From positions 2,672,501-2,736,500 of the forward strand of contig CM065879.1 in NCBI GenBank assembly GCA_033439255.1: DNA of 64,000 nt. The letters are read 5' to 3'. The notes under the pieces are model-generated. The model ran no database searches, was not told where the DNA came from, and saw only the letters and a list, made by a program, of their open reading frames with translations. The translations under genes were made by a program, and so were the position numbers. Below are positions 20,909 to 51,161 of this stretch, in pieces. The stretch is from Hericium rajendrae. Taxonomy: Eukaryota > Basidiomycota > Agaricomycetes > Russulales > Hericiaceae. Position 1 is the stretch's first letter. Each line of letters starts with the position of its first letter.

Positions 20909-20992
20909 GAGAGTATTGCCTGTATTTGAACAGGCAATACTCTCTGAATTAGCGGTGAACAAGGCCAATAAGAATTCACTCACTGTGAAGCT
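20909..20992 (-). other. Left module of A4 (intron and hairpin, minus strand)
   Basis: Minus strand: exon ...CACA, GTGAGT donor at 20983, CGCTAAT branch site, TTCAG acceptor at 20944 (40 nt). The hairpin GAGAGTATTGCCTG / CAGGCAATACTCTC (20909-20944) follows directly. Relative to other copies both arms changed together, so pairing is preserved. Confidence 0.7.
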
Positions 20993-21098
20993 GTCTACAG
21001 CTCCTCCCTGTACGAGTCCAGCTCGGAATACCTGAGAAAAGCCTGTGAGTTGTCCATTGACAGAGGGAAACGTACCTTACAAGTATGAAAAAATGGCC

Positions 21099-21134
21099 GT
21101 GGGACGTGTTTGGCTGCAGCCAAATGTTTCCCAC
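21099..21134. repeat. 36-nt hairpin with central CTGCAG, copy 1 (A4)
   Basis: GTGGGA...TTTGGCTGCAGCCAAA...TTTCCCAC forms an interrupted palindrome; the central 16 bases are perfect. A second version lies at 22955-22990. Confidence 0.75.
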
Positions 21135-21207
21135 GTGCCCCCCACATTTTTTTTTGTTCCAAGTCGACACGCGAGCTGCGTGTCACGGCCCGCCGTGCAC
21201 CATTTCG

Positions 21208-21235
21208 TTTGAATGACCATATATGGTCATTCAAA
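21208..21235. promoter_or_regulatory. Central palindrome of A4
   Basis: A perfect 28-bp palindrome centred on CATATATG, located between the two divergent modules. It is placed where a shared bidirectional promoter or a binding site for a dimeric factor would be expected. Confidence 0.5.
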
Positions 21236-21388
21236 TGAAACGGGCCGCACGGCTCCGTGCGCTCGACTTGCATTCGACGACTTTTACCTGCCACGTTGTC
21301 TTCCTTCCACCCACCCCTTCGTCGCTGTGGGAATTTTATTGTAAGTATCTCCCAATCATTTTTGATACTTCTTGGGCTGGGAATAAAG

Positions 21389-21464
21389 GTGAGTACCTAC
21401 AGTTCTACTATAGCTTCGTTATCTAATCAAGAGAGTATCGCTCGTGTTGTCGAGCGATACTCTC
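21389..21464 (+). other. Right module of A4 (intron and hairpin, plus strand)
   Basis: Intron 21389-21431: GTGAGT donor, CTAAT branch site, AAG acceptor (43 nt). The perfect hairpin GAGAGTATCGCTCG / CGAGCGATACTCTC (21431-21464, loop TGTTGT) follows, then a T run and the C-rich tract. Confidence 0.75.
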
Positions 21465-22954
21465 GTTTTTTTACACTTCACATGCCCCCACCGACTCCCG
21501 CGCGCCCGTGCCGCCCCTGCATGCCCACATCGCCACCTACGCATCCATGCCGCCACCCGCGCACCCGTGCCCCGCCCGCGCACCTCCACCAACTCACTTG
21601 CATCCATGCCGACTCCCGCGCGCCCCTTGCTGACTCCCTGCACCCCCGCCGATGCCGCCGCACTCCCATGCGCCCGCGCTGACTCCTGCGCACCCGCGCT
21701 GACTCCTGCGCACCCCCGCCGACTCCTGCGCACCCCCGCCGACTCCTGCGCATCCCCGCCAACTCCCGCGCACTCCCACCGACTCCTGCCCACCCCCCAC
21801 TGACTCGATCGGCGGCGCCGCCTCCTGCATGCCCCTGCCACCTCTCGCGCCCTCGCGTGGACTCGCCCGCGCCCGCGCCGATGCCTGCGCCCCCGCGCCA
21901 CCTACCGCACACCGGCGCTGCCTCCCGTACTCCCCGCGCTGCCTCCTGTACTCCCCGCGCTGCCTCCTGTACTCCCCGCGCTGCCTCCCGTACTCCCCGC
22001 GCAGACTCGCACGCACCCGCGCCGATGCCAACACGTTCGCGCTGCTGCCCGTATGCCCATGCTGCTGCCCGCATGCCCTGTGCAGATTCGCACATCCCCG
22101 CGCCGTGTCCAACGTGCCGATTCCGCCTTCAACACCTCGCGCCAACTCCCGCGCATCTCTGCCGACTCCCGTGCGCCCACGCCGACTCGATCGCCGGCGC
22201 CACCTCCCGTGCGCCCCTGCCGCCTCCCATGTCCCCGCGCGGACTCGCACACCCATGGGCGGACTTGTACGCCTCTGGGCGGACTCGCTCACCCCCGCGC
22301 CGCATCCAACGCATCCATGCCATCTCCAGCGCGCTCATGCGGCCTTCAGCACGCCCATGCCATCTGCTGCGCGCCTGTGCCGATCCCGCGCCGACTCGCA
22401 CACCTCCCCGCCGACTCGCACGCCCCCCTGCTGACTCCTGCCCCCGTGCCACCTCCCGTGCCTCCGCACCGCCTCCCGCACGCCCCTCCCGTCTCCTGCG
22501 CGCTGGCACCATTTTCCCCACACATGTGCCTGCGGACTCGCGCCACTTCCAAAATGCCCGTGCTGCCTCCCACGCCCCCGCGCCTCCCGCCCCCCACCGA
22601 CTCGCCTTCCCCCATGCGGACTCGTGTGCACCCGCACTACCTCGCACGCACCCGCACCACCTCGCATGCACCTGCACCACCTTGCACGTCCCCGCGCTGC
22701 CTCCAGCGCACCCGCACCGGCTACAATGCACCCGCACCGACTCCCGCGCACCCGCACAGATTCCTGCACACCCGTGCCGACTCCCGCACGCTCGTGCTGA
22801 TACCCATGCATCCCCGCCGATGTTCACGTGCCCGCGTCGATGCCCGTGCTCCCGTGCTGACCCCTGCCACCCCTGCGGCCTCCCGCGCACATGCCCACCA
22901 ACTTCTGCATGTGCCTTGCAGACCCCCACATGCCCATGTTGCCTCCTGTAGTGC

Positions 22955-22990
22955 GTGGGAACTGTTTTTCTGCAGCAAAACATTTCCCAC
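22955..22990. repeat. 36-nt hairpin with central CTGCAG, copy 2 (A4)
   Basis: GTGGGA...CTGCAG...TTTCCCAC, the same frame as 21099-21134 with different bases in the stem. It sits at the end of the right GC-rich tract, a likely transcript 3' end. Confidence 0.7.
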
Positions 22991-23399
22991 GAGGCATTGG
23001 ATGCTGTAGGTGCAGAAGAATATGGACTGGGAGATATACTACTAGTGTACAAGATGTAATTAGCCAGAAATATAGTATTTTCTGTGGTATATTGCCGGAG
23101 ATCTGATATAAGAGATAATCATGGATGATAACAAACTATACACAACTATAGGTGGAATGAAGCTACCAAAGGGTATAAACTCTATTGTAGGTGAACTGTA
23201 GGTACTGTAGCTTTGAGCAGCTATGGTAGATTTGGGCATCTATGAGCTGCTACAGGTCAGCTACAGATCAGCTACAGGTAGCAAATATAGGGACCCACTT
23301 GTCACCAAGAGCTATGTGATCTATGGAACCTTTTTCAGCTACTGTAGATTAATATTGCTACTGTAGATCCCTGTAGAATCTACGCCTTTTCCAGATGCA

Positions 23400-24064: not shown

Positions 24065-24839
24065 GTGCTCCTTAGGGATGGACACGAGTCAGAGTCACCT
24101 GCGGGTCAATGCAGGTATACCCGCAAAATTTACTCGCGAGTTCCTGACCTGCAGATCCAGATCACCCGGTGGCTGAGACCTGTCCGGATCCAGGTCAAGG
24201 TTTACTTAAAGTGCATTGACCCACGAGTGACCTGCGAGTAACCCGCAGACCACTTTTTGTTTAAGGAAGGTTGACAGAAGGTATATTAATATTAGTGTAT
24301 GATGTATATACATGAACGAACCATGCTGTGTATGCAAAGCTAACTCGTTTAACGTTGCCCATTGGGCTTCTTCTGAATTTCATGCACCGTGTAAGAGGGC
24401 GCGGACATCACGTGCACTGAGGAACACGTTGAGCATGAACCGGGGCACACGTTATTGGGATATGCGGCACGCGGGACATCTAAGTGTCAGGTGCATGCTC
24501 ATTGATGCAAGGAGAGCATAAATGGAGGCAGCACAGGGCGTTGCCATGCATCGCAGAGGCGGGAACATGCTGGATAGGGCACAAGGCATTGAGAGACAAA
24601 TGTGACACACACGCACCGGCATGTACACATGCGACACACATGCTGAACGGGGCATGAAGGCGTTGATGCATGGGGCACGAGCAGCAGGCATGTGCGCGTG
24701 CATGCACTCTCCGCAGGCACACAATTGTTCCAGATGTGCAAAGCCAGGGGCGGACAAGTGCATGCATGTGGGAAGTGAGGGACAGCGTGGTGTTGAAGAT
24801 GGTGTGTGCATGCGTGAATGACGAACAGGTGGAAGTTGA

Positions 24840-24861
24840 CCTCGTTGCTATGGCAACGAGG
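24840..24861. promoter_or_regulatory. X-box-like palindrome in hAT1
   Basis: CCTCGTTGC-TAT-GGCAACGAGG, 22 bp, with one central mismatch. It lies about 260 nt beyond the module hairpin in the direction of the presumed transcript, as in A2 and A8. Confidence 0.6.
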
Positions 24862-25120
24862 CTCGACATTGGTGCTGCCAGTGTTCTATGTGCTACGCCT
24901 CGGCCGCATGTGCACTTGGGATGATGGATAGCATCCCACACACGTGAGAGCAGGTTATAGACAGCGAGTGGGACCAGCGAATAGACGTGTCAAGGAAGGA
25001 CTTACGGGTGCTGGGGTGGTCGTCAACTGTGTAGGTGACACGGAGCACGGATGGTGGGTGATAGGTGGGTGACATGACGAAGGGAGTGGGGCATCGTGAG
25101 CTGTAGAAAGTGAGTGAAAA

Positions 25121-25225
25121 CGAGTCTCGCTCATTATCGAGCGAGACTCGCAAGATTAGTACAGAACAGTAGAAATAGAGTCGATTTCAACTCACCTTAT
25201 GACCCTCTAACATCTGCAAGCCCTC
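25121..25225 (-). other. Exon-intron-hairpin module of hAT1
   Basis: Minus strand: the exon ends AGAGGGTCATAAG, then GTGAGT donor at 25195, CTAAT branch site and GCGAG acceptor near 25147 (49 nt). The perfect hairpin CGAGTCTCGCTC / GAGCGAGACTCG (25121-25150, loop ATTATC) spans the acceptor. The exon end and intron layout match family A although the transposon ends are unrelated. Confidence 0.75.
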
Positions 25226-25483
25226 TCCACCATTAGACCGACCTGAGATAACGAAGTGAGAGGAAAGAAGGGAGCCTGGGACGGTGTGGTAAGTGGTAAT
25301 AGACAATGCTAATAATTGACCTGCGAGTGACCCGGGATGTCACAGGTATCTGACCCACAGCTTTGGATCACCCGGTGGCTGAAACCTGTGTGGATCCAGG
25401 TCTGACCCCGCGCCAGCCCGAATACCCGCAGGTTCGGATCTGGATCACCTGTGAGTGCACTCGTGTCGAACCCTAGTGCTCCT

Positions 25484-27649: not shown

Positions 27650-28076
27650 ATGCGGTAGTCTGCACGCAGGAAATGCGAGGTGCGTGGAGGGCATGGGTGA
27701 AGGTCGAGGGCAGCGGGACCATGCATGAGGTGCAGGGGCTGGGCATGAAACGTCGAGCTCGGCACGAGCCCGTGCGTGAGTACTCGGGTTATCGCAGGCC
27801 CATGCACAACACGGCAGGCATGCACGCAAGGCACAATGGCATAGATGTCACGAGGATGGACATGGCCCTGCGCAATGTGCGTGTGCTGGCATGCCCATCC
27901 CGGATCGCAGACGACCGTGCGCACTCTGCTAATCGTGGTCATTGGAAGCGACGCACTGGGCGCTAGTGACGTGGTGGCGTGGCAGCATGGTGGTGAGGTC
28001 GGTGAAGGGCAGGGTGTTGCAGGATGGGCGGTAGTCAGAGGCGAGAGGGGATGAGGATGTGGGAGAACAAAAGAAG

Positions 28077-28330
28077 TCGAGAGTATCACTTGTTCAAGCG
28101 ATACTCTCGACATTAGCACAAATTAACAGAATAAAAGTTTTTTTTTCTCACCTGCGAGGCCCTCTGCATCCTACTGAGTCCCTCTGGCATGTGATTCGAC
28201 GAGTCAGAGGGAGAGGAGAAGAGTGGAGGGTGGAGAGGGGAGAGGGGAGAATGGAGAGTAGAAAGTGGAGGTGATAGAGACAAGGAGACAGATGAGCTTT
28301 GACACGCATTTTGGTGCTTCAGCCACCGAA
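28077..28330 (-). other. Exon-intron-hairpin module of A3
   Basis: Minus strand: palindrome TTCGGTGGCTGAAGCACC (28311-28330), exon ending AGAGGGCCTCGCAG, GTGAG donor at 28151, GCTAAT branch site and acceptor near 28106 (about 46 nt). The hairpin 28077-28110 has 16-bp arms around TCGAGAGTATC with one mismatch. Confidence 0.72.
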
Positions 28331-28559
28331 CGAGTGAAGCTACGTTCTTCGAGCCACTACAAATCAAGGAAAATCACATTAATTTAGAAAAAACCAGTAT
28401 GGCTATAAATTTTATATAAAATTCGAACAAATGAGCATAATAAGTATCTACTATGCATGAAGCTCACAGGGAGCCAAGTCCATTCAGTAAAGTCTGATGC
28501 CCAGTCTCGACACAATGCTCCGCAAGCGCCTGGCAACCACCAATCCCAGCTTCACCTGG

Positions 28560-29941: not shown

Positions 29942-31255
29942 CATCTGAAAAATCTGAAATCTACATAGCTACCAGCCAATGCTATTCCTGGTTGCATAGT
30001 GCTATGGCTGCTATGTAGTTGGGCCACACAGCTATACAGGATTATGGTAGCTATCATAGCTATCATAGTCATGGGTGATGGGTATATAGTAATACATAGT
30101 GATAGGACACTGCTATGCCTGCTATGTAACCTATGTGTTTTTAGTCTCCCTCTATGTATCCTATAGATACTATGTTCCATACAGAGCTTCCAAGGTTACT
30201 ATGGACTCTCAGGTTGCTATAATATCTATAGTTGATGTAGAGACTATGATTTCGAGCATACTGTATTTGAAACAGATCAAACTAAATTATATTTAACTAC
30301 TACTACATTCAAGTATACTACATTACATGCGCGCTTGCAAGGTGACAAGGCGTGCATGTACACAAGGGTGCGGCTGGTGTGCACGACGCTGCATGTGAGG
30401 TGCAATGGTGCGCGCGAAGCTCGCGACCCATGCGCAGGAGTGCGCATGCTGCGGGGCCGGCACACGATAGGACTGGCCGCGCTATGTGGCAGGCCTGCGC
30501 GCAGGAGACGGGAGGGCCATGCGTGAGGCACGGCGGGGCATGCACGAGGCACTGGGCTGCAGCGGGCCCGTGCGCGATGCGGCAGACGTGCACGCAGAAG
30601 GCGTGGGGCTTGGGGTCTGTACGCGAGGCGGCGGGCCTGTACGCGAGGTGTGGGGTCCGTATGCGAGATACTGGGCCACCGCGGGCTCATGTGCGACGTG
30701 TCATGCCTGCGTGCGGGAGACGCGAGGCACGCAGGGCACGTGTGCGAAGCGTCGAGGATGGCGGGCCCGTGCACGAAGCACTGGCTTTCCATGGGCTCGT
30801 GCGTGAGGCTGCACGTGGGGCGCAGGGTCTGCACGAGATGCGGAGGGCGTGCGTGAGGCGTCGGGGGTGGCAGGCCCGTGCGCGAAGCATCGGGCAACCA
30901 CGGGCCCATGCGCGAGGCACTAGACTGCCACGGCTTCGTGCGTGATGGGTAGCCTGCACGCCGGAAACGCGAGGCGTGTGGAAGGCGTGGGCAAAGGTTG
31001 AGGGCGGCGGGGCCGGGCACGAGACACAGGGGCCGGGCACGAAACGTCGGGTACCGCGAACCCGTGCACGAGTCCTTGGCTTATTGCAGGCCCGTGCGCA
31101 ATGCAGCAGGCATGCACGTGAGGCACGATGGCGTAGATGTCGCAAGGACGGATATGGCCCCGCACGACGTGCGTGCGCTGGCATGCCCGTCCTGGGTCGC
31201 GGACGACCGTGCACACTCTGCTGATCGTGGTCGTTGGAGGTGGCACGCTGGGCGC

Positions 31256-31432
31256 TGGGAGGGCCAGAGCTCACACGATGAGGAGGTGGTGGATGCTGCT
31301 GATGCTCTGACAAGCCTGACTAGCTACGACAAGGCAATGGCTGACTAAGCTCCTAACCCCAGCTCCTAACCCCAGCTCCTAACCCCAGGTCACATGCTCT
31401 CCCCCTCTCCTGCTCCCAGACTCACTGCTCCA
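31256..31432 (-). repeat. G1 LTR (downstream copy)
   Basis: 177 bp, TG...CA. It contains three tandem AGCTCCTAACCCC units and no obvious TATA box. No difference from the other LTR was seen. Confidence 0.92.
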
Positions 31433-31485
31433 TGTGCCCCTCTCGAAAATGGCGACGTCCGCGTCGCCCACAAACCAGTGAGCCT

Positions 31486-34400
31486 CTATGCTGACCCTGA
31501 CACAGAACCTGCCTCGACTGTGACCAACTCAACCTCAATACCATCTGACTCAGCCTCGGCATCTGCACCATCTAGTTCTGCCTCTGCGGCTGCTCCATCC
31601 AACGCAGCCTGGTCACCCTGAGACACGTGGCTCGCAGCCTGTGCTTCGAAGTCGCGTTGGACTGCCTCGAGTGCCGATCCAGGGCGTGGGTAGAATGCAC
31701 GAAGGCGACGTGCACTGATGTCACCCGATATAGGGTTGCCGGCGAGGGTTTCAAGGGTGTACGAGTTGCGTGCATGAGTGGCGATGCGGTGGGGCTGAGA
31801 CCAGCGGCCACGAATCTTGTTGTCTACACTGTAAGAGGTATCCATTTTACTTTCGTAAATCTGCACGAGCTGTCCAATAGAAAAGACCACTTCACCGGGC
31901 TGATGCTTCTGCAGCCGCCTATCGAAGGCGGTCTTACGACGGAGCGCGTGTTTAACTATGGCCTCGTATCCGTCTAGGCGCTGTTGCGCTACGTAGGCCA
32001 TGTGCGTCTCCACGTCTGAAGGTGTCAGCGTGGAGGACGCAGTCGCAATGTCGGTGGGAGATGTGTTCACGACAAGGCCGAGGAGGAGTTCCTTGGGCGA
32101 GAACTTCAACGCGGGAAGAATGCGACTGTTGATGTGGTTGACGGCCTCATCAAGATAGCCCGGCCACTTGGAAGGGAGTTTGCTCCAGTCTAAGGACTCG
32201 GCATCGATCTCGCCAAGTTCGGGGGCTGTAAGACGAGCAAGCACACGAAGCAGGATCTTGTTCGTGCCTTCGACGAGTCCGTTAACCCACGGAGAGTACT
32301 TCGGGGTAATGAAAAGGCGGCAACCGTGCGAGTCGCAATAGTTGCGGACTTCAGCACAGTCGAAGTGGGACCCGCCATCCGCCATAAAGGTGTCCGACAC
32401 GGCGAACTTGTTGAAAATTTCGGAAAGGGCGCTGACTGTGGTTGCGCCCGAGCCCGGCTTCTTGTACTTGAACACCCATAAGTGTTGGGCATATGTGTCC
32501 AGGTAAACACCCAAGTTGGTAAAGCCATTGGTTCCCGTTGGCATTTTGAGGTAATCGCCGACAAGGAGCTCGAACGGGTGGCGACGAGTAATGGGCTCAA
32601 GGAGAGCATTGATGTGTGGAGTACCGAAGTTCTTGCAGCGCGGGCACTCGCGGACTGCGGCAAGGATGGATGCGTCGAGCTGCGGACTCGCGATGCGATC
32701 AATGAGTACCATTTTGATATTATCGCGGCCGAGGTGCCCGCCGTTGACATGCTGTTCGTACGCAAGTGCCTTGGCTTCGTCCTTGGACACGCACTCGAAC
32801 TTGGTGAGGGCGCGGGAAGTGGTGCCGCCACGCGTGTGCCACAGTTTCCCATTGTCGATGAAGTACTGGATGGAGCGATGTTTGGCCCGTCGCTTGTCGC
32901 GCACGCTACCACCACCATCAATGGCGAGGAGGGCGTCGACGACCTCGAGGAATAGGGGTTCTTCGGAGAAGCGGGCACGTAACGTGGATATGCCGGGGTC
33001 ATCAAGGGTGAGCAGGAGAGTGTCTGCGAAGCCTGCGGTGGCCTCCCAATCTTCGTTGACCGTCCACTCGCTGCCGTCACCTGTGACTTTAGGGGTGCCT
33101 TCTGCTTTTCGGCTCAGAGCGTCTGCCACGACGTTGAGCTTACCAGGAACATGTCGGACATCGACTATATGGTATGCAAGGATGCCGTCCCGCCAGCGTG
33201 CGTGGGCTGAGTTCAGCTTGTCACTGAGCAGCACGTCTCGCAGTGCTTGGCAGTCAGTTTCGATTTCGACGGGGAAGTGGCCAATGATATCTGCGAATTT
33301 GTCTAGGGCAAATTTCAACGCGGCGAACTCGAGAAGGAATGGCATATACTTCTCCTCGGATGATGAAGTTCGTTTGGAGGCGAAGGCGAGAGGGTGGAGC
33401 TTGACGACAGTGCGTCCACTAGGTAAGAGCGTTGTAGAGCGTTGGGTGAGGACGCCGGCAAAGCCGTCCTTACAGCCGTCTGTGGTAACAATAAATGGGG
33501 TACCGTCCCAGCGCGGGCCACGTAGGACCGGCTCCGACGAGATAGCAGCCTTCAGCGCCAGGAATGCGCGGGTGTGGTCGGTGGTCCAGAAGTCCTGCAC
33601 CTTAAAGGACTGCATTGCTCACCGGTAGGTGGCCTTGGTGCACGGATTCGGCAGGCGTACGGCATGCAGCAGTTCGCGGAGTGGTGATTCGATGCGAGAA
33701 TAGTTTCGAACCAGGTCGCGGAAATGGCCCGTGAGGCCCAGGAATGACACTAAATTGAGGGCATCGATGGGGGGCTTCCAATCGACGATCGCCGTGAGTT
33801 TCGTCAAGTCGGGCGTGACGCCGTGAGGTCCCACTCTCGCACCAGCAAACACGGCTTCGGTTACGAAAAATGACGACTTGGTGGCCGAGAGGGATAAGTT
33901 CCGCTCCCGTGCCCGCGTGAAGATGCGACGCAGTTTGTGCATCATCTCGTCGAACGAGTCGGCTGAGGCACCGCCGTCATCGACGAGGAGCTCCATTATA
34001 TCCTCCGCAATCAAATCGTGGAGGTGAGTAGCAGTTACGTATGCAAAGGACGAGGGCGCACCCGTGAGGCCGAAGGGCATTCGGATGTACCAAAAGTACC
34101 CTCGACCTTCCACGTAGAACGCTGTGTACGGGCGCGACTCGATGTCGATCTCGACAGCATGGAATCCTGCAAAGAAATCAAAGACGGACAGGTACTTGTG
34201 GCCGCTAAGGCGCTGCTGCTTGGCGCGGATGTCACCTTGAGGCATTGGAGCGACGGTGGTGACCTTATTGACTTCGTTGAAGTTTTGACATACGCGCCAC
34301 TTTTGTGGTGGTGGGACCTGGGGTTCGGCGGGTGTATGTGGTACGCGGGGAGGAGCGTCGAACAGCGGCGGAATACCAGCCGCTGCGCACTCGTCGTTGA

Positions 34401-35856: not shown

Positions 35857-35903
35857 TGAAAGGTTGCTCGGGGAGCAGGATTGCAGGGTTGTCCGGTCCC
35901 CGT

Positions 35904-37790: not shown

Positions 37791-37855
37791 CGGAACGCGC
37801 GAGAAGAAGGATGAAGAAAAGATGCTAGGAGAGGATCACACTCTCATCACCACTA

Positions 37856-38032
37856 TGGGAGGGCCAGAGCTCACACGATGAGGAGGTGGTGGATGCTGCT
37901 GATGCTCTGACAAGCCTGACTAGCTACGACAAGGCAATGGCTGACTAAGCTCCTAACCCCAGCTCCTAACCCCAGCTCCTAACCCCAGGTCACATGCTCT
38001 CCCCCTCTCCTGCTCCCAGACTCACTGCTCCA
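37856..38032 (-). repeat. G1 LTR (upstream copy)
   Basis: Same 177 bp as 31256-31432. The flank on the A5 side begins GCGCTAACG. Confidence 0.92.
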
Positions 38033-38149
38033 GCGCTAACGACGTGGCAGCGTGGCGGCGTGGCGGCGAGGTCGGTGGAGGGCAGGGTGTTGCGGGATGG
38101 GTGGCAGTCGGAGGCAAGAGTGGATGAGGGCATGGGAGGACGAAAGAAG

Positions 38150-38381
38150 TCGAGAGTATCACTCGTTCGAGCGATACTCTCGACATTAGCACAAATTAAC
38201 GGAATAAAAGGGGTTTTTTTTACTCACTTTCGAGGCCCTCTGCGTCCTACTGAATCCCTCTGGCATGCGATTCGACGAGTCAGAGGGAGAGGAGGAGGTG
38301 GAGAGTGGAGAGCTGTGGAGGTGATAGAGACGAAGAGACAGACGAGCTTCGACGCGCATTTCGGTGCTTCAGCCACCGAAC
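38150..38381 (-). other. Exon-intron-hairpin module of A5
   Basis: Minus strand: perfect palindromic motif TTCGGTGGCTGAAGCACC (about 38360-38381), a purine/pyrimidine-biased exon, GTGAGT donor at 38227, GCTAAT branch site, acceptor near 38179 (49 nt). The hairpin TCGAGAGTATCACTCG / CGAGCGATACTCTCGA (38150-38183) has one mismatch. Confidence 0.75.
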
Positions 38382-38611
38382 GAGTGAAGGTACGTTCCTC
38401 GAGCCACTACAAATCAAATAAAATCACGTAAATTCAGAGAAAAACAAGATAGCTATAAATTGTATATACAATTCGAACGAATGAGCATTATAAGTATCTA
38501 CTGTACGTGAAGCTCAAAGGGAGCCAAGTCCATCTAGTGAAGTCTGGTGCCCAGTCTCGATGCGATGCTCGGCAAGCGCCTGGCAGCCGCGAATCCTGGC
38601 TTCGCTCGGGA

Positions 38612-38890
38612 TTCCTATATAAAGCTCGCGCGACACGCATTGCCTCTTGCTCTTTAACCCCCACTGTCTCTTGCCACGTCGACGCCTTCGTCGACGTTCT
38701 TTCTTGCTCGTCGCTGTTCCTTGCTCACTCGTCACTGTTCCTTGCTCACTCGTCGCTGTTTCTTGCTCGCTCGTTGTTACTTCTTGCTTGTTTGTTATCT
38801 CTAAGGTAATCTTCTAATTGTTAATCTCTTATTGCTTATACTAATATTTAGTTTTTTAGATTTCGCTTTTTGTTACTTTGGTAAGTTCTT
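38612..38890 (+). promoter_or_regulatory. Divergent unit of A5: TATA box, minisatellite exon, micro-exon
   Basis: CCTATATAAAGC (about 38614) precedes GACACGCATTGCCTCTTGC. The exon contains about four TCGTCGCTGTTCCTTGCTCAC-like units (38700-38770). Intron 38806-38851 has GTAATC donor, CTAAT branch site, TTTAG acceptor (46 nt). A 29-nt micro-exon (38852-38880) ends GCTTTTTGTTACTTTG before GTAAGT. The micro-exon core (inverse AAAAGCGAAAAT) is kept in every A copy with this region. Confidence 0.6.
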
Positions 38891-39581
38891 ATGTGTTATC
38901 TTTATCTTCTAAGCCTCATGTTTTCTTATCTTTTCTTATTTAGTTTCTTATATTCTTTTACTTATCTTATCTTATCATGTTTTCTTATCATATCTTATCT
39001 TCTTGCATTATCTTATCTTATCTTTTTATCTTATCTTATATTTTTATTTTCTTACTTATATTTTCACTTTTTAGTTAGTAGTAGTGTTTGTGATATATCA
39101 ATATAATCTTGATGCATTGAAACACTATATCTGTGTGATCATATATTATTAATTTTGATATGATTGTAGAAAAGATTTAAAGTTCTAATAAATTGTATTG
39201 CTCTAATATATATATCAGGTCTACATATAAAATATAAGATATATGAGACACATATTGAATGTAGGATATGTGAGACATATATTATACATAGGTTATGTGA
39301 GACACATACTGAATATAAGATATGTAAGACACATAAGCCTTATAGTTTTAATAGATACTGATAGCTTTCATAGCTAGTCATACTATCATAGTTACATAGT
39401 CAGCTCTCATAGCTATGATAGTACTCCATAGCACTCCATAGCATCACCTTTGAGCCTCATAGCACTACATAGCATCTCTCTTTGGCTATGTGGGCTATAC
39501 AATAAAGGGCGATACTATGAAGCTAGGAGATCTATGTAGACTTTATAGAGCTATGTACCACTGGCAAATTTTTCAGATGAA

Positions 39582-39924: not shown

Positions 39925-41211
39925 CATCTGAGAAATATGTTACTGGTATATAAGGCTATGTTGGCTATATAGCTTTCCTAGGTCCATAGCTGTCCTCTTT
40001 TATACATAGCAGTCTCATAGCAGTCAAGTAATTTATGCAAAGCTATCATAGCTTGCCATAGCTGTCATAGCATAGGGCATAAGCTATATAGCTGCTATAG
40101 CATAGAGTATAAGATATCATAGCTGTCATAGCTATAATAGTATAAAACAGCTATAGAAGCTATATCAACTACATCTTGTATCTTCATTGTTATATTATAT
40201 CTAGCTAATAAGATTTCTATCCACTCTATGTCACTTCTGTCAAATATATTACTCTAACATATAAAACAAAAATATTATTAGCTCAATAGCCTTATTCATC
40301 TTAATCATAGATATTAAAAGTTTTAAAAACATTATATTTTTTATACAATTTCTTTACAAAACATTACTTAAACTACAAAGACTACTACATCACTATAAAA
40401 CTTACAAGACTACAAAAAGCAAAAATATAAGTAAGAAAAAGAAAACATTAGTATCAGAAGATAATTAAGATAGCATATGAACACTTACCAAATCAACAAG
40501 AAAGCGAAAATCTATGAGACAATTTGAAAGACATCAGTAATAAGACATAAGAAAAAGCTTACCTAGGTAGGACTACAATAGTACTGTAATAAGTATGAAG
40601 GCATTAGCATTAGGCATAAGAGATAAAGATAAAACATACCTTAACACACAAAGACGGCAACGACGACAAGGGAGTGACCGAGCGACAACGATGAGAGTGA
40701 CCAAGTGATGATGATGAAGGGGCGAGTGATGACAACAACGATGACGAGAGAGGGAGCAACGACGATGAGGCAGCGAGCAACAACGATGAGGCAGTGAGCA
40801 ACAACGATGAGGCAGCGAGCAACAACGATGAGGCAGCGAACGACGAAGGAGGCAGCGAACGACGAAGGAGGCAGCAATGACAGCGATGAGCGAGCACGGG
40901 AGCGACGACAACGAGTGGGGGTTTAAAGTGCAAGAGGCAATGTGCGTTGCACGAGCCTTATATACGATTCCCGGGCGGAGCCAGGATTTGTGGTTGCTGG
41001 GCGCTTGACGAGCGCTTGCCGAGTGTTGCATCAGAGGCTGGGCACCAGACTTATCTAACTAGATTTCGCTGCCCACTGATGCAAGGTACAGTAGATAGGT
41101 ACAAGTCTCATTCATTTGACTCATATGTACAGTAGATAGCTTCCTTGTTTTTCGTTCAATTTATACGATTTTATTTGATTTGCAAGGGCTCGAATACTAT
41201 ACCTTCGCTCA

Positions 41212-41463
41212 TTCAGTGGCTGAAGCACCGAACGCGCTTCGACTTCGATAACTCGTCTCGCTCTTACTCTATGTCTCGTCTCTCCTCACTGTCCTCTCCA
41301 TTCCCTCGCCACTCCCTCCGTCATTCTCTCCAAGGTCATCTACTTCGAAGGTCCGGGGGGCTTTAGTAGTAAGCAGAGGGCCACAAGGTAAGTAAAAACA
41401 ACTTGCCTTCCTTGTTTCTTCACTGAGACAGAGAGTATCGCTCGAGAAACGAGTGATACTCTC
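41212..41463 (+). other. Exon-intron-hairpin module of A6
   Basis: TTCAGTGGCTGAAGCACCGAA-type palindrome (41212-41232), exon ending AGAGGGCCACAAG, intron 41388-41431 (44 nt) with GTAAGT donor and GACAG acceptor; the branch site is not a clean CTAAY here. Hairpin GAGAGTATCGCTCG / CGAGTGATACTCTC (41431-41463, one G-T pair). Confidence 0.72.
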
Positions 41464-44065
41464 ATTCTTTTCTTCTTCCTTTGACCCCTCGTGCGTTCCC
41501 GGTCTCGTCCTCACTCCCACCGCCCCTTTACATTCTTCCTTCCCACCATATCCACCCACGTGCAGCCTCCTCATTCCACGCACGACTCCCAACACTGCAC
41601 AACACGTCGTTGACACCGACCTCAATGATGCACAAGCCCCCGGTTCCCCCTTTCATGCACAGGGGTACGGGACACAGGCCATGCACGCGCGTCATTGCAC
41701 GCCATCTGTGCATTGTCAGCAACGTGTGCGCATGGGCCACATCATTGCCTGTGCCCTTCACATCTCATCCTGCGGCCCTCCCTTACGTTCATCTCTCGCC
41801 GCCATCTCATCTGCATCGACCCACCCCCGATATTGCCGCCATGCCCGCAGGGCCTGGCGTGCCATCTCCAATGACACGCACTGACTCCACCCCTCCCGCA
41901 TGGCCCCGCCGTCCTGCCTACCATGCTGCTGCCTGGCGCACGGGTCAGACAGGGTGCGCACAGCCTCTCTGTCATGGGCCACGTGTTGCATATGGCCCCG
42001 CCAGCACACACGCAGCTGATGGATGGCGACAGCCCTGCACGAATGTCTGCATGTGCAATTCATGCCCGCCCAGGGGTGGAAACGCCAGTGCAGCGAGCAC
42101 AGGACAGGCACGGCATGTCGTGTGCCACGTTGCGCAGGTGCACCACAGCCCGAAGCCTCGCACGCGGGCCCCGCACCGCGTGCCTGTGCTGCCCTCCCAC
42201 GTCCGATCCTTGCGCCTCGTTCGTGGGCCTGCTGTGTCGTGCACGAACTGCGACAGCATGACGATGGCCCCGTGTGCCTCGCACCTCGGCGTGCAGGTCT
42301 GCTGCATCCCGCACGGGTCTGCCGTGTCGTGCGGGGCCTCTGCGCCTTGTCCCGGCCTTTCGCCCTTGTGCATGGGCCTGCTGCACGCCAACCCCTCATG
42401 CATGGACTGCTGCCTTGTGCACACCCACACGCCCTCTCGCACACTCGTCACACCCTCGCAGACATCCCCAATGCCTCGTGCATGGACTCAGCACACGGCG
42501 CTGCCTCCTGCATGCATCCCGTGCCTCAAGCGCATCTGCTATGCCCTGTGTACGCCCCCCGTGCGCCTGCGCGTCTCGTGCATGGTCCCCATGTCAACTT
42601 CATCCTTCGTGCACGGCCCCACCTTTGTCCAGCACCCTGTGCATGGGGCCGCCGCAGCCCGACAGCTCACGCACAGGCCCCATGTCCCCGCATCTCTCGT
42701 ACGCAGGCCCGACACATCAAGCAAGCCCGCCATGCCTCGTGCGCATGTATCTCTTGTTGTGCCCACCAGTGTGTGCACTCCTGCACATGGCCCTGCCTGT
42801 GCAGACTGCATGTGACTAAGCACATGTATTATTAGTACTTGTAGTTTACTTGATTGTAGTAGTAAACTCATTGAATTTGATCAAATTTGACTTAGAATCT
42901 TTTGTACCTAGTAGACTTGACATACTACTAATAGTACTGATAGTAGTCATAGCTCACCTTTCTAACTATGATAATGCTATATATTCCAAACTGCTAGCCA
43001 TGGAAGCCATGATAACACTAGGGATGGACACGAGTCAGAGTCACCCATGGGTCATCACGGGTATACCTGCGAAATTGACCTGCGAGTATTTGACCTGTGG
43101 ATCCGGATCACCCGGTGGTGCAAACCCGTCCGGATTCAGGTCAATGTCTCACTGAAATTCATCGACCTGCGAGTTATCCGCGAGTTACCCGCCACCTATA
43201 CATTTTTTTTTGGTAAAGTTATATTTGTCTTGCAAAAATCGTGATGTACACATGAAGTGTCTGCTAAATAATTACATAACTACATACTGAGACATATAGT
43301 GCTTCTAAACTGGCCCGCGGCATTGTCGAACCCACTCTGGTGCAAGGGCACGGAGACAAGATAGCTGCCGAATGGCGCGCTCGAGTTCGCGGGTGTTGGT
43401 CCGTGCGGAAGAGTAATGGACGAGAGCGAGGAACTGCTCATCTTTAAGTGCGAGTGCTGTTGAAGCTCGGAGGGCACGCTCGTGCTGAGCACGGAGAAGG
43501 CGGGGCTACATTGTTAAGCTAGGCCGCGAATGCGGGACTGGCCTGCTGTTGCGCAAAAGCAGCGTTGCTTTGCTGTTGCTGTTGCTGCGTCACGAATGCC
43601 GCACCCGCCAGCCACTCGCCCGCACCATACCCAGCGCCTAGCGCGAGTTACGCATCGTGCGCCTCGCCAAACGCAGCGTCCCCCTCCTCCAGCTCATCTA
43701 CCTCGTTCTCGTCTGCAAGGCCAGTCGGCAGTGCCGCCTTCCGTCTCCGTGCGCATGGATGCGCATGGGGCGCGAGGTTATCTGATCTGAGCGTGACAAG
43801 CGCGCGACGGAACGGGCACTCGAGTGTGTGTGTGTACAGGCACAGCTTCAGGTGTACAAAGCGATAAGAGCGCACGCGCACGACCATTGCAGAGCATGTG
43901 AAGCAGCGGGCGAAAGAAGAGAGGATCGGCAGCGCACGATTACACGCTACCGACAGGTGGGATGGGGTCACAGGCACGGTATTGAAGCCGCTGCATGTGG
44001 CCCACACAGGTGTTGAAGACAGCATGTGCAGCTCCACGCGGATGGTGAAACGAACAGCAGTCAAG

Positions 44066-44087
44066 CCTCATTGCCATAGCAATGAGG
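44066..44087. promoter_or_regulatory. X-box-like palindrome in hAT2
   Basis: CCTCATTGCCATAGCAATGAGG has arms of 11 with one mismatch. Compared with hAT1 the C-G pairs next to the core became T-A on both arms, preserving the palindrome. Confidence 0.6.
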
Positions 44088-44512
44088 CCCCACAGTTCGT
44101 CATTGGCGATTCATGGTCTTTCACGCACTGCGCCGGGGTCATGCATGCTCATACGGGTGGGAGTGGGCCAGAGCGCGGGTTTAACGTGTTGACAAGGGCG
44201 TCGTGCATGCCGGCGGTGGAGCAGGCCAGAAGGTCACGTTGCAAGACCTCGAATAGTGGAAGGATGAGGAATGTGCTACTACATGCTGACTCTGATCTAG
44301 CTCTATGCTGACTAAGCCTCTGCCTCTAGCGGTGCTATCATGTGATCTATGCCTCTCAGACCCCCAGATCTCCCACTCCAGCGGGGACCGTCAAAAGTGC
44401 GGGTGATGACAGTGACAGAGACTGGCTTGGATGATGCACGAGGTAAGATCAAGTATCGAAGGATGGTGGGCTGTCGTTGTCCGTCGAAGAACAACGAAGA
44501 ACAACGAAAAAC

Positions 44513-44600
44513 GAGTCTCGCTCATTATTGAACGAGACTCCCAAGATCAGTACAGTACAGTGAGATTGAAGGTTACTGGGACTCACTTAAAGCCTCTCTA
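44513..44600 (-). other. Exon-intron-hairpin module of hAT2
   Basis: Minus strand: exon ...GAGGCTTTAA, GTGAGT donor at 44587, CTGAT branch-like site, GGGAG acceptor near 44539 (49 nt). Hairpin GAGTCTCGTTC / GAGCGAGACTC around ATAAT (44513-44542), slightly decayed. Confidence 0.65.
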
Positions 44601-45023
44601 GCCTGTGTAAGACCCATCCTGCCATTATATTGAGGAGATGCAGTGAAGAGGGGACGATTAGAGCGAAGAAATGAAGGCGAGTATGTGGTGTAAGTAGTAA
44701 GGACCAACTGACCTGTGGGTGACCCGTGATGTCACAGGTACCCGACCCGCGGCTCCAGATCACCCGGTGGCTGAAACCCGTCCAGATCCAGGTCAGCACC
44801 TTGGATGGGTCAAATACCTGCGGGTTCGGATCTGGGTCACCCGCGAGTGCACTCGTGTCAAACCCTAGATAACACTGTATAGCTTGCACTACTAGCTATG
44901 GGAGCTATGGGAGCTCTCATAGCTCTACATAGCTGAATAAGTAAACAACATAGCTCTGATAGCTCTGCCATAGCACACATAATATAACCTGCAGCTATAT
45001 ATAATTCAGTTTTCTCAGATGTG

Positions 45024-45179
45024 ATGATGACAACATCAAGTGGCAGCAGTGGGACACCTGCACCTAGAACAAGTCCCAGGCCAACAAGATCCACCAGTTC
45101 AACAAAGACCACACTGTGACCGAACTGGAATGACTTGCATCAGAATCCCACATGCATGTCTGGGGTACCAGCCCCACTG
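45024..45179 (+). pseudogene. Ancestral remnant, piece 4
   Basis: A short coding-like piece between A6 and B1, bounded by 2-bp duplications (TG on each side). Continues the series 29483 > 39582 > 45024 > 49016. No long open frame. Confidence 0.35.
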
Positions 45180-46162
45180 CATCAGGAACCCTCAGAACTT
45201 TCTGATTGATCATCAGAAAAATTTGCAGGTCCTACATAGCTCTATAGATCTTATATAGAAGTCATAGGCCTATAGCACCTCCCTTTACTACATAGCTCTG
45301 ATAGCCTAAAGGGAGAGCTATGGAGTGCTATGAGATGCTATAAAGCTGAAGGGGGTGCTATGAACTACTACCATAGTTACCATAGCTAACTATGAAGCTA
45401 TAATAGGATACCTAGCTATAACAATTATCAGAGCTATAATATCTATATGTACTATATTGGATAGGTAGACTTGACATATCTATCCAAGCAATAGAGCCTA
45501 TCAAAGCTATTCAAATTATAGCTTGACTAAATAATATATTAAGACACATTTTAAATAATATGAATAATCACACATATAACAATATCAAGAGGACTGAATA
45601 AACCAGATTATATTTATCATTCTAATCTATTACAAAATCTCATGACTACAAACATATATACTAATAAAACTAGAAAGATAACAAGTCAACACAAAGACTA
45701 CAAAAAGCGAAAATATAACCTAGAAGTATAAGCAACAGTTAGTAAAAGTGTAAGACTTACCAAGCTACATAACAAAAGTGTAATCTGTAACAGAACAAAG
45801 ACATAAGAAAAGCATAACTTAGAAAATATAAAGGACAAAGACTTACTGAACATTGAAGAAAGAAGTACAAGTTGAGAGCAAGCTCCGAGCGAAGAAAGAA
45901 GGTAGTGGTTGAAGACAGAAAGACGACACGCATTGCATGAGCTTTATATAGCTGAGCGTGGACATGCCCAGTTGGAGCCACAAATATGGCTACCGCACAT
46001 GTCAAGACTCGGTCATAGACAGCAGAGAACCACCCAAGTCACCAGCAATGATGAGAGCGAGAGAGCAGAGAGTGACTAGCAGTGCAGTGACCTGTATTGG
46101 AGGTACAGTACGGTACAGATGAAATGGACAATCTAGGGAAATAGGTGAGCAACAGGGAGTCT

Positions 46163-46543
46163 CATCAGGAAGGTTGACAATTTTCTGATGAGTCTGACAG
46201 TTTCTAACCCTACTGTAGGATCTAATCTGTCTGAGATTACTTTTCAAATGACCATATCTGATTTAGCTTATATATTTTAGAGTTAACATCTATTGTTAGC
46301 TATAGTAGTTATCTATCTCTAACTATCCACTATAGCATAATTTCTGATATCCAAAATTTACATAAAACTGAGAGCATTCTGAGAAATTTCTGAGCTCAGC
46401 TTGAGGTCCAACAAACTGATAGTGTCTGATAGTGTCTGATGCTGGCTTATACCATCTGATTCATCTGATTTCACTCATACGAGTTCCGACAGATGCTATC
46501 AGATGGCCGCAGGTCAATCAGAAAGTTGTCAAGGTTCCTGATG
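46163..46543. mobile_element. B2: small CATCAG-ended element, 381 bp, inside A7
   Basis: It starts CATCAGGAAGGTTGACAA and ends, inverted, CATCAGGAACCTTGACAA. CT is duplicated at 46161-46162 and 46544-46545. Internal TCTGAT motifs as in B1. Non-coding MITE-like element. Confidence 0.85.
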
Positions 46544-47006
46544 CTATAAGTGCTGGAGCGACAATGGGAAAAGAACAATGGACACCATAATGGGTCGAAC
46601 AATAGAGTGAGAACAATGGTGGCTCAATGGAGAACAATGGAAGGGAGAACAATAGGATGTCCCAAAGGGGAACAAGGGCATGGGTGAAGGATAGCCCCAG
46701 GTCATGTGAGGAAGTGAACATGTGATGGGGCTGCTGGAGCACATGACCGACACGATGCCTTGATGGCAGAGAAGAAGGCAGAGAGAAATGGAGCGATCCG
46801 TGACAGCACACGGCTGTGTGTCGCAAGAAAGGCTAGGTATCTAGACTTCTTTAACTTAAGTTGCCTGTCCTTAGATGTACTGTGTAGCAGATACTTATGT
46901 AGCTCATTAATTATAATTCTATAAACTATCTATGCATGCTACATTTTTTCTGAATTTAATGTGATTTGATTTGATTTGCTGAGTCTCGGAAACCGTAGAC
47001 TCGCAC

Positions 47007-47239
47007 ATTCGGTGGCTGAAACACCGAATGCACATCAAGTACCCTCAACTCTTCACTCGATATTGACCTTCAATCAGCCCAGTTCGTCCTCTCCTTCATT
47101 TTCTCCCTTCTTCGACAACTCAATCACTGGCAGGAAGCGATAGCGAGCTAATGGGCAACGGGTAAGTAAAAAAGCAGTTTTATGGTCTTCATACAATACT
47201 AATTCAGGGAGTGTCACCCATTTTACGGGCAATACTCCC
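47007..47239 (+). other. Exon-intron-hairpin module of A7 (decayed)
   Basis: ATTCGGTGGCTGAAACACCG palindrome (47007-47028), intron 47162-47207 (46 nt; GTAAGT, CTAAT, TTCAG), then GGGAGTGTCACCC / CGGGCAATACTCCC (47208-47239), an imperfect stem. Splice signals outlived the perfect hairpin. Confidence 0.65.
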
Positions 47240-49015
47240 GTTCTTCATCACTCCATGCCCCGACCCCCATGTCCCACCCCCAACGACTTCCATTCCGTAG
47301 CACATTGCTACTGCCATGTCATGTGCCTCCCTCCTGCCCCCTGGCATGTGCCGCCAATGTGCACGTCTCATCAACGTGCACACGTCTGCCAACACGCACA
47401 TGCCCTGCGAGCGTGCACGCCTGTGCATGGCCTTGCATGCTGGCACCATGTACGGCCAGCCTCGCATGCTGGCGACAGCGTGCACACAGCCTCATTTGCC
47501 TGCACATGCTGTACGGTCTTGCCTGTGCTCATCTGCATGTGCTTGCCCACGCCTGCCTGTGCATGCATGGTCCCACCCATGCACAATGCTGGCCATCAAC
47601 GCAAGACCTCATGCGGGCAGCCGCGATGTGAGGTGCACTCCCCACTGCCTTCACACACTCCTCATCATGCCAATGTCCTCTGCGCTGTGCCTGTGCACTC
47701 TCCGTGGCCTCCACGCTCTCTGCATCACCTCCATGCCCTCCGCGTTGTCTCCATGCCCTTCCCATCATCTCCATGCCCTTTCCATTGCCTCTATGCCCTC
47801 AGCTCACCTCAACGCCCTCAGCTTGCCTCGACACCCTCCGCGCTGCCTTCCCGCTGCCTTCCCACCCTCCGGCACCATGTCCACAGCCTGCGTGCAGCCT
47901 GTGCACCCTCCGCATTGCCTCCATGCCCTTTGCACAGCCTCAACACCCTCAGCATCACCTCAGCACCCTCAGCACCCTCTCCATGCCTTCTGTGCCCTCT
48001 CCACACCTTCCGTGCTACCTTTTTGCCTTCCACGCCACGTTCGCAGCCTCCCCGCCCTCCGCACCACATCTGCAGCCTCTGCACACCCTCCACGCCCTCC
48101 ACTCAGGCTCTCCCTCATGTGGCCTCCACACCATCCACACTATGTCCACATGCTCTGCACTGTGTCTGTACCGTGTCCGCACCATCCGTGCCATATCCAT
48201 GCCATCCGCGCTGTGTCCATACTCTTTGCACCATGTCCGCGCCGCCTGCGCAGCATCTCTGCTATTTATCGCATCTCGCGTGCATCGTCAGCCATGCACA
48301 CGACCATTATGCTACATGCCCGCACCTTAGCAGCCAGCTTATAGCAGTGCAGCAGGCAGCAGCTCACGTGCAACTGCTACATGATGCATGCAATGCTGCC
48401 TGAGTTATTTCATAATTACAATTCATTTCTGTAGCTGTAGACTAGTTCTTATAACTGTATTCCTTAATAATAGTAAACCTTTTTTTTTGGAAGTTGGAAA
48501 TCCCTCATTTAATAAATTCAAAAAATTTGACTTGTGATTATGGAGTCTATCATATCTGACATAGGGCTGATAGAGTCCATAGCAAGGCTCTGATGGTACA
48601 TAGCTCTGATAGTAATGACTTATAGGTACATAGATCTATATACCTTCCACCTGCTGCTATAAAGGCTATCATAATGTGCATAGCTCTACATAGGTGCAAG
48701 GGTGGCTATATAGATCTCATAGCACTATGCTAGGACACATATCTTAGTGCTGAGCTATATAAATTTCTAATTTTTCTGATGATCTGATTTGATCTGATTC
48801 AATCTGATGTCAATCTGATTGATCTAAAAATGGCTCTAAAGGAATTCTGATCTATGCATTATATATAAAGAGACTAAAGGATTCTAGTTATTAATATTTC
48901 AATCCTCCAATACTTAATTCAAAAAGAATCAGATCAGTCAGATTAGAATCAGATTAATCAGATTGAACTCAGATCAAATCAGATCAATCAGAAAGTTCTG
49001 AGGGTTCCTGATGTG

Positions 49016-49724
49016 ACTCCAGCACATCCATCTAGACACATGTGCCCTCTGCCTGGGGCAATGCCCCGGCCAGATCTTCCGCCTGGGGCAATGCCCCAGC
49101 TGGGCCTTCTGCACCACAGCCGTCCACTGGGTCACAGTTCATTGGCCCGTATGGGTCATCCTTCCAATCAGTGCTGCACACAGGTAGTGCTATTGGTGCC
49201 TCACCTGGCTGCACCCACTCATCATTGGAGGATCGTTGCGATTACTCATGCCACAAGGTCCACAACAAGGCCAATGTTCTTGCCCTCGTCACTGCCTCCT
49301 GCCGTAGCTGGTCCATGGTCACTCATGTCTGCCACCTCATCACTGAGGCCAGCATGGTGTCTCCCACCAACTGTACTCTCGTGCAGCGACACCTCATCCA
49401 GGTATGGGTGTATGAGGGCAATGTTGCTATGCTAAGCGTGAGGGACTTCCACCCCCTATCATGGCCCCACTGGGTGCTCTGCCCCCTACCAAGCGCAAGG
49501 CAGGAAGCATCAGTGACACCCACTGCACATGTGCATGGGCATCCTCCTCCACCGATATCCCCATGCTGGATGTGTCGGTGGTGCTGATCTCTTCCCAGCC
49601 CCCTTCAGGGACTGGGAGGTCTCATTCCATGGGGGGAGGGGATGCAGCAGCATCGTTATCTGAGCCTCTGCACAACCCCAACCTGGTGTTGACACACAAC
49701 AGCAGGTCACTCGAGGAGATGGTA
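49016..49724 (+). pseudogene. Ancestral remnant, piece 5 (Pro/Ser-rich coding-like)
   Basis: Coding-like on the plus strand, with the repeated SAWGNAPA-type tract near 49.05 kb and a Ser-rich end (SQPPSGTGRSHSMGGG near 49.6 kb). Frames are interrupted. It lies between B1 and A8 and is the longest piece of the series. Probably a disordered region of the same unknown gene. Confidence 0.4.
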
Positions 49725-50922
49725 CATCTGGTAAATCTGTCAGAGCTATATATGACTATATCGGCTACATAGCTCTAATAGCCTGATAGCTGTCTCCTTT
49801 TCTTCATAGCTCTATATAGCTTGAGGGTCATCTATATAGAGCTATAGAGCCAAATAGGACAGCTATGGAGAGCTATCATAGCTATCATAGTTAGCTTACT
49901 ATAAGGCATAGATACCATAGTATAAAGTAGCTATAAGAGCTATGTTAACTATATATTCTATGTATACTCTCTACATTATAGACTATATATATACTATTCA
50001 TGTTATAGATAATTATCAAAACTATCTTAACTTTTTATACTATAATTTGTCTATCTAGATAAATTTCAAGTTGCATAAACAATTTCAATCTTACATCATA
50101 GCTCAATATACATTTCACATATAAGCAACTGAATATCAATTTTATTAATTTATAATATTGCAAACAATTTTACACTAATATTACAAATTAAAAACATACA
50201 TATCATATATTACAACAAAATACTGTAACTATGACACTATACAAAGAATAAAAGGCATTAGTACAAACAAATATTTACCTGACTGTTAGAAAAGCGAAAA
50301 TCTATCAAGGAACTATAAGTATAACAATATAAAGGATAGAACACAACAACTTACCTAAGTATAGAGAAAAGCAAACACTAATACAAAGGTATTAGTATAA
50401 GGTGCAAGAGATTAAAAGTAGATGCTTACCTATATAAAGAAAGATAACGAGTGACGAGCGACAACGACAGAAGGAGCGACCACGACAGAAGGAGCAGCGA
50501 CGGAAGAGGGAGCAGCGACGGAAGAGGAAGCAGCGACGGAAGAGGAAGCAGCGATGACGATCGAGAGAACAACGACGATGACACGAGGGAGCAGCGACGA
50601 CAAGCAGGCAGACGACGACGACGAAGGCGTCGACGTGGCACAGGAATGGTGGGGGTTAAAGAGCAAGAGAGAACGCGCGTCGTGCGCTGCCTTATATACA
50701 AATCCCGGCCGAAGCTGAGAATCGTGGCTGCCGGGAGTTGCCGAGTGCCGCGTCAGAGACTAAAGGATTAGAGTTGGTTATGTTGAACCTGCTACCCAGT
50801 AACGTACCGTAAACTTGTTACATAGGTAGCTCATGTATACTCCTCAGACATATAATCTATACTTACCGCCATTTTTCCATATTTTTATCTGTTTTATTTG
50901 ATTTGTTAAGTCTCTTCGCGCA

Positions 50923-51161
50923 TTCGGTGGCTGAAGCACCGACTTAACGCGTCGAGACTTCCTCATTCCTACCTACTCTGCTTTGCTCTCCCTTCCCCTC
51001 CGTTTCCTCGCTCGCTCGCTCTTTTCTTCGTCTTATATCGAGCATCAACACGGCAGGGTTGGGTTTGCAGCAGGTAGAGGGTTGCAGGTGAGTAAAAAAA
51101 AAATGTCTTTTATCATTTCTTCGTACTAACACAGAGTGTCGCTCGTTTTCGAGCGACACTC
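50923..51161 (+). other. Exon-intron-hairpin module of A8
   Basis: TTCGGTGGCTGAAGCACCGA (50923-50942), exon ending AGAGGGTTGCAG, intron 51088-51134 (47 nt; GTGAGT donor, ACTAAC branch site, ACAG acceptor), perfect hairpin GAGTGTCGCTCG / CGAGCGACACTC (51134-51161, loop TTTT). Compared with A5/A6, both arms carry the matched change TAT>TGT / ATA>ACA. Confidence 0.78.

Follow-up and report, generated by a model that had tools for sequence, protein, structure and literature searches.

The stretch analysed here (the window) is 64,000 nt of contig CM065879.1 of the basidiomycete Hericium rajendrae (assembly GCA_033439255.1, positions 2,672,501 to 2,736,500). It carries transposons of two superfamilies, one with CATCWG ends and 2-bp target duplications, the other of the hAT kind with 8-bp duplications. 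Ten copies of one short cassette were found in the window: a leader exon, an intron of about 48 nt with spliceosomal signals, and a hairpin, with the only acceptor AG that the copies have in common placed in its left arm. Comparison of copies throughout the genome makes selection on the splicing signals and on the stem well supported; we tentatively favour a role of the hairpin in covering the 3' splice site.

Cassettes and carrier elements in the window

The ten cassettes had been proposed in a sequence-only reading made by a model. We observed that they align with one another, and a covariance model run on the window recovered all of them (Table 1); nine of the ten had served to build the model and match it by construction. 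The donors quoted in that reading (3341, 21388, 25196 and 51087/8) were correct to within one base. All ten copies are real, but the span given for them left out A2, which starts at 3328. In this set the order of parts was a purine-rich leader exon, often with TAGAGGG or CAGAGGG and mostly with AG at its end, followed by a GTRAGT donor, a CTRAY branch site, a gap of 3-5 nt and a hairpin of 12-15 bp.

Both ends were found for five elements of the CATCWG..CWGATG kind, each flanked by a perfect duplication. In the available part of PMC12730594, PlavakaB (CMCT clade) is described with CATCA..TGATG ends and 2- or 3-bp target duplications. The ends of our five elements agree with this description, the exact CATCA..TGATG form occurring in A3x only and CATCT..AGATG in the other four, and the duplication was 2 bp in five of five. 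For A4 a single right end of this kind was found (23397), and for A5 one end. A2 was inserted in an older copy: when its flanks are joined, 97 of 100 bases agree with the A6 copy and no gap is needed, so that the latter represents an empty site. A6 itself is interrupted by Ty3/gypsy-like reading frames bounded by identical 177-bp direct repeats (31256-31432 and 37856-38032), a stretch that looks like a recent insertion.

Besides the CATC..GATG ends and 2-bp duplications in the carriers of most window cassettes, the likeness to PlavakaB includes the abundance of Plavaka in the genome; transposase-domain matches numbered 132 for Plavaka, 172 for KDZ and 33 for hAT (dimerisation domain). On the other hand, the carriers with known ends here are non-autonomous, and an intron-hairpin leader is not mentioned for PlavakaB in the available part of PMC12730594. 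No Plavaka transposase gene was noticed among the listed reading frames of the window, which were not run against a family library; a non-autonomous element requires no such gene.

The elements hAT1 and hAT2 resemble hAT transposons in their 8-bp target duplications and TAGGG..CCCTA ends, and differ in having no transposase and in carrying the cassette as an internal extra. The cassette does occur across unrelated superfamilies, as had been claimed. The carriers identified belong to two of them, the A elements with found ends forming one superfamily and not several.

Table 1. Positions of cassettes, carrier elements and flanking features in the window
Feature	Position	Strand	Details
Cassette A2	3328..3433	+	donor 3341; branch site and left arm of hairpin present, most of right arm gone; 40 bits, E 1e-6
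Cassette A4r	20899..20998	-	divergent partner of A4f; stem variant GCCTG; covariance-model match
Cassette A4f	21373..21474	+	donor 21388, CTAAT branch site, hairpin 21431-21464; covariance-model match
Cassette in hAT1	25110..25210	-	donor 25196; stem GAGTCTCGCTC/GAGCGAGACTC; covariance-model match
Cassette A5	28069..28167	-	alignment and covariance-model match
Cassette A6	38142..38243	-	alignment and covariance-model match
Cassette A7	41373..41473	+	alignment and covariance-model match
Cassette in hAT2	44501..44601	-	alignment and covariance-model match
Cassette A3x	47148..47249	+	stem variant GGGAGTGTCACCC/GGGCAATACTCCC; covariance-model match
Cassette A8	51074..51173	+	donor 51088, branch site CTAAC, stem GAGTGTCGCTCG/CGAGCGACACTC; covariance-model match
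Element A2	2090..5113	+	CATCTG ends, duplication TT
Element A6	29942..39579	-	CATCTG ends, duplication AA; interrupted at 31256-38032
Element A7	39925..45021	+	CATCTG ends, duplication TG; hAT2 nested inside
Element A3x	45211..48781	+	CATCAG..CTGATG ends, duplication AT
Element A8	49725..52498	+	CATCTG ends, duplication TA
Element hAT1, non-autonomous	24073..25475	- (strand of its cassette)	8-bp duplication GTGCTCCT
Element hAT2, nested in A7	43019..44867	- (strand of its cassette)	8-bp duplication GATAACAC
Upstream box CGGTGGCTGAA	3191..3201	+	one of nine in cassette-bearing elements
Other CGGTGGCTGAA boxes in cassette-bearing elements	24167, 25373, 28318-, 38368-, 41214, 44765, 47010, 50925
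C-rich tract downstream of cassette A7	41474..42815	+	part of presumed non-coding transcript

Abundance in the genome

The genome (46.8 Mb, 19 contigs) was searched with the pattern CTAATNNNGAGAGTATCGCTCG, which covers the branch site and the left hairpin arm, allowing at most three mismatches. We found 740 matches compared to 5 for the reversed control; the count is approximate in both directions, because the palindromic hairpin may be read from both strands and because the pattern misses variant hairpins. In the window the pattern had 8 matches, representing seven of the ten cassettes with one of them on both strands, and 100 shuffles of the window gave none. Chance composition, which the sequence-only reading had raised against itself, does not account for these counts. 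The 94 exact matches listed contained 14 different spacer triplets. Outside the genome, one exact match appeared in a prokaryotic contig collection, without the right arm, and the viral contigs searched with the exact pattern had no match.

A second hairpin type, GTCTC, had 75 matches genome-wide and none in the control. Among 58 of these (17 rows of the CTAG class being left out), 17 were less than 2 kb from one of the 100 listed hAT ends, out of 122, while 0.5 would be expected. The hAT-linked hairpins showed one fixed geometry, facing away from the TAGGGATGG end at a distance of 0.9-1.6 kb, which suggests that a family was amplified after acquisition of the cassette. Other hairpins of the GTCTC type had no listed hAT end nearby, among them the exact class CTAATCTTGAGAGTCTCGCTC, which was found at many places (e.g., G000:C1:2728982) and probably represents a further carrier family.

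Splice signals and pairing of the stem

The covariance model produced 99 hits, many being one hairpin seen from the other strand; these reduced to 49 distinct full rows and, after a filter at 85% identity, to 36 non-redundant copies. The GTRAG donor was kept in 34 of the 36 and the CTRAY branch site in 35. The sole acceptor AG common to the copies sits within the left hairpin arm, as GAG|T, with G70, A71 and T73 present in 36/36 and G72 in 35/36. A hairpin at the acceptor had been proposed, and the two are indeed associated, but the common AG lies inside the arm. Its distance from the donor gave an intron length of 44-53 nt, about 48, in the 28 copies measured. Within the stem this AG is opposite a conserved ACTC, and the constancy of the arrangement suggests that covering of the acceptor is partly what is selected.

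Two other uses of the sequence were considered by eye and rejected. For a downstream AG serving as acceptor with the hairpin looped out, no AG was seen at a constant place past the stem. Pairing of the exon GAGGG with the CTCTC arm, as a switch, does not track the stem variants.

In a nine-row MAFFT alignment, which was not fitted to any structure, 9 of 14 pairs were standard in every row and several had changed on both sides (e.g., A-T/C-G/G-C at columns 70-93, and T-A/C-G at 75-88 and 76-87). Among the 36 copies 96.1% of stem cells were paired, while 1000 column shuffles averaged 90.4% and never exceeded 92.2%; this alignment was fitted to the covariance model and so leans towards the paired structure. 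The numbers of pair types (21; shuffle mean 17, maximum 23) and of doubly changed pairs (8; mean 4, maximum 9) were within the shuffle range.

The right arm is not part of the search pattern. Among loci picked by the exact left arm, three of four families had a right arm more alike between copies than the 14 bases that follow it (0.99/0.84, 0.95/0.81 and 0.82/0.46), and conservation in 40-nt bins, where the central bin contains the search pattern, agreed with this result. Of the 36 non-redundant cassettes, 30 were submitted to folding; the 28 that folded had a mean energy of -24.5 kcal/mol and a mean z of -7.1. The base-pair changes and the pairing above shuffles argue for a structured element under selection, in line with the functional, possibly structured RNA allowed for in the sequence-only reading.

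Flanking sequences and origin of the module

The box CGGTGGCTGAA had 10 matches in the window compared to 1.2 expected. With at most one mismatch it was found within 400 bp upstream in 15 of 34 cassettes tested (0.4 expected), positioned 128-174 bp ahead of the model start and inverted in the three hAT copies. As it lies near both ends of hAT1, it may be a transposase site there.

Downstream of the cassette C exceeded G over 600 nt in 30 of 30 cassettes, with a mean skew of -0.28, while upstream this was so in 22 of 30 (mean -0.04). A coding function of the downstream tract was considered for one family, represented by six copies. Of 77 pairwise indels, 6 had a length divisible by three, and the variable sites were spread over the three phases as 59/66/67. 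Long ATG frames downstream were present in few copies only and at differing positions (24 sequences given, 23 parsed). Coding is rejected for this family on the pattern of sequence change.

Transposase genes were examined as a source of the cassette. The regions within 1.5 kb of 20 Plavaka and 12 hAT transposase matches contained no cassette; the 5' ends of the genes may fall outside these loci. A hairpin scan of these 32 loci, which cover the gene 5' ends incompletely, gave only one unrelated hairpin (L069), and on these grounds the source was rejected. Of 40 comparison loci (20 Plavaka, 12 hAT and 8 chance TAGGGATGG loci), none was matched by the covariance model.

These data bear on passive inheritance, in which a single capture, from a host gene or from the transposase gene of an autonomous element, brought in promoter, leader and intron, which are copied along with no function in the non-autonomous elements. 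In its favour are the fixed hAT geometry, which shows amplification after one acquisition, and the sharing of an upstream box. We consider this improbable: the flanks have diverged widely, yet the splice signals and the stem pairing were kept with two-sided changes, and the loci around the transposase matches were devoid of the cassette, although first exons may lie outside them.

The sequence-only reading had also allowed the cassette to move between families on its own. A mobile, introner-like intron-hairpin unit hopping between transposons would agree with its presence in two superfamilies and with tandem and divergent copies inside an element. Such a unit, however, would not be expected to have conservation that reaches into the preceding exon and into the stem past the intron. 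Neither ends nor duplications belonging to the cassette itself were seen, the hAT copies keep one fixed geometry, and no copy outside a transposon was identified, with no systematic search made for one. Self-movement is, in our judgement, extremely improbable. Probably recombination or capture carried the module between PlavakaB-like and hAT elements, and its numbers later grew along with each family; this is a simpler account of the exchange than a self-mobile cassette.

Possible function of the hairpin

The explanation that we favour, if only tentatively, is that the hairpin sequesters the 3' splice site and makes splicing of a non-coding transposon RNA slow or conditional. The module would be a 5' transcription-and-processing unit of non-autonomous DNA transposons, arranged as the CGGTGGCTGAA box (present in fewer than half of the tested copies), a stretch rich in pyrimidines, the purine-rich leader exon, the spliceosomal intron of ~48 nt and the hairpin. 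With the 3' splice site (GAG|T) in the left arm and a long, C-rich and apparently non-coding tract following on the same strand, it could drive transcription and splicing of a non-coding RNA. The hairpin over the acceptor would let this RNA build up in a regulated, partly unspliced form, and partly unspliced RNA might allow the elements to remain expressed, or to evade or exploit RNA surveillance. In Cryptococcus neoformans introns were required for mRNA accumulation at most genes tested, according to the available part of PMC3744415. A fuller scenario, in which the hairpin stalls or times splicing and the module, shared and exchanged between PlavakaB-like and hAT elements, is kept by shielding them from spliceosome-linked silencing or by exploiting it, appears unlikely.

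Several observations weigh against sequestration of the splice site by a selected hairpin. One copy has ATGAG instead of the donor and another has a disrupted donor. Most of the fetched copies were selected for an exact match to the left arm and branch site, and conservation of these two parts is therefore conditioned; this does not apply to the ten copies of the window or to additional ones in the fetched loci. The AAA family reverses the right-arm result (0.58 compared to 0.80 in the next 14 bases), partly because of one deleted copy (L025, which is A2) and of variable gap placement. The copy L046:3931 had no significant hairpin (z -1.1, one of the 28 folded), and A2, L017:1112 and L021:1049 are broken. 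In A2 most of the right arm is gone, with an alignment consistent with deletion between CTCG repeats; the hairpin attributed to all ten window cassettes is not intact in this one. Among the 36 copies G-U cells numbered 23 and A-C cells 13 (p 0.13), which separates RNA from DNA weakly. Finally, the hairpin largely survives in the spliced form folded in silico, an outcome also in keeping with a function in mature RNA.

The last point introduces the main rival, in which the hairpin acts in the mature non-coding RNA, as a stem near its 5' end, by stabilising it, by blocking scanning ribosomes (hence nonsense-mediated decay) or by binding a protein, while the intron only boosts accumulation. Most of the 28 spliced folds retained the inner stem: the AG with which exon 1 usually ends takes the place of the intronic AG. 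The downstream tract had no coding signature in the family tested, and one presumed transcript may carry several hairpins (L043). Still, the acceptor AG is fixed within the stem beyond what this role needs, and the loop varies in sequence and length, which gives no suggestion of a loop-reading protein. We regard a role in mature RNA as somewhat unlikely.

With regard to the weak separation of RNA from DNA, the palindrome could be a protein-binding or recombination site in DNA, and the splice-like flanks an accidental intron. Many copies are perfect DNA palindromes, the deletion in one copy is consistent with palindrome instability, and G-U was not clearly above A-C. Over the 49 distinct but related rows the two counts were 28 to 13 (p 0.03), a weak pointer to RNA of the sense strand. 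A DNA-level element would leave unexplained the retention of donor, branch site and length in nearly all copies, the internal position of the cassette, distant from the ends found, and its fixed orientation with respect to the C-rich tract in 30 of 30 cases; we judge it decidedly improbable.

The spliced folds hinted that exon 1 pairs with the flank downstream of the hairpin to form an outer helix. Partners were swapped among the 30 cassettes that could be parsed out of 33, and the true partners were no better than mismatched ones (p 0.74, 0.66, 0.28 and 0.23). As a specific structure the outer helix is rejected on this comparison of sequences, and a general purine/pyrimidine complementarity remains. 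This result also bears on a small-RNA precursor, whose hairpin would be processed into small RNAs that guide or saturate silencing. Stable hairpins at hundreds of loci would suit such a precursor, but the conserved stem is just 12-15 bp, compared to a microRNA-like helix of well over 15 bp, and the swap gave no sign of a longer helix with the flank. We see this origin of the hairpin as very improbable.

Relation to known systems

In the available part of PMC9860276, introners and introner-like elements are repeated short spliceosomal introns tied to DNA transposons, and the cassette resembles them in both respects. It differs in that the unit is more than a spliceosomal intron: conserved exon sequence and a stem that continues past the acceptor belong to it. 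The cassettes are also located in non-coding transposon DNA, while introners are new introns in host genes. Introner-like elements of fungi were reportedly described by van der Burgt in 2012.

A hairpin at the 3' splice site of yeast APE2 is said to be an RNA thermosensor. The likeness is an RNA structure at the acceptor able to govern its use; however, APE2 is one host gene, whereas here there are hundreds of transposon copies with paired changes. In Cryptococcus, RNA interference against transposons is coupled to the spliceosome, so that there too the fate of a transposon transcript is set by its splicing behaviour in a basidiomycete. We know of no common cis element of the cassette kind in that system.

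A search of the window against Rfam had no matches above the gathering score, and searches of the open-licence literature of PMC listed no comparable element. We consider the cassette system categorically new, with the caution that all the evidence is sequence and comes from one genome. The cassette may be an undescribed means by which parasitic DNA controls the RNA that it makes. The usual view is that non-autonomous DNA transposons need their ends alone; if an RNA element that is selected and covaries is indeed present in hundreds of copies across two superfamilies, the RNA of these transposons would be important to them. Such an element would also allow a direct test of splicing kinetics as the factor that decides transposon silencing in fungi, and would be an example of module exchange between transposon superfamilies.

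Elements with several cassettes

Some elements had more than one cassette, either as a divergent pair (20944-/21431+) or as tandem pairs (L043). The centre of the divergent pair at 20909-21464 holds a large imperfect palindrome (~21160-21280), and pairs of this type recur in L014, L020, L021, L022, L024 and L026. The bidirectional element at L043:1660-2578 has two tandem cassettes on either side of a common centre, with stems of the GGGAGTACTG type except in the first cassette of the right side. Beside its left cassettes, at L043:680-1400, there is an array of palindromic units around GGGCCCGAAACG..CGTTTCGGGCCC. A degenerate array of CTGCACAAAGCTGCACTACAGGACTGCACAAAG-like units was observed at L041:6650-7600.

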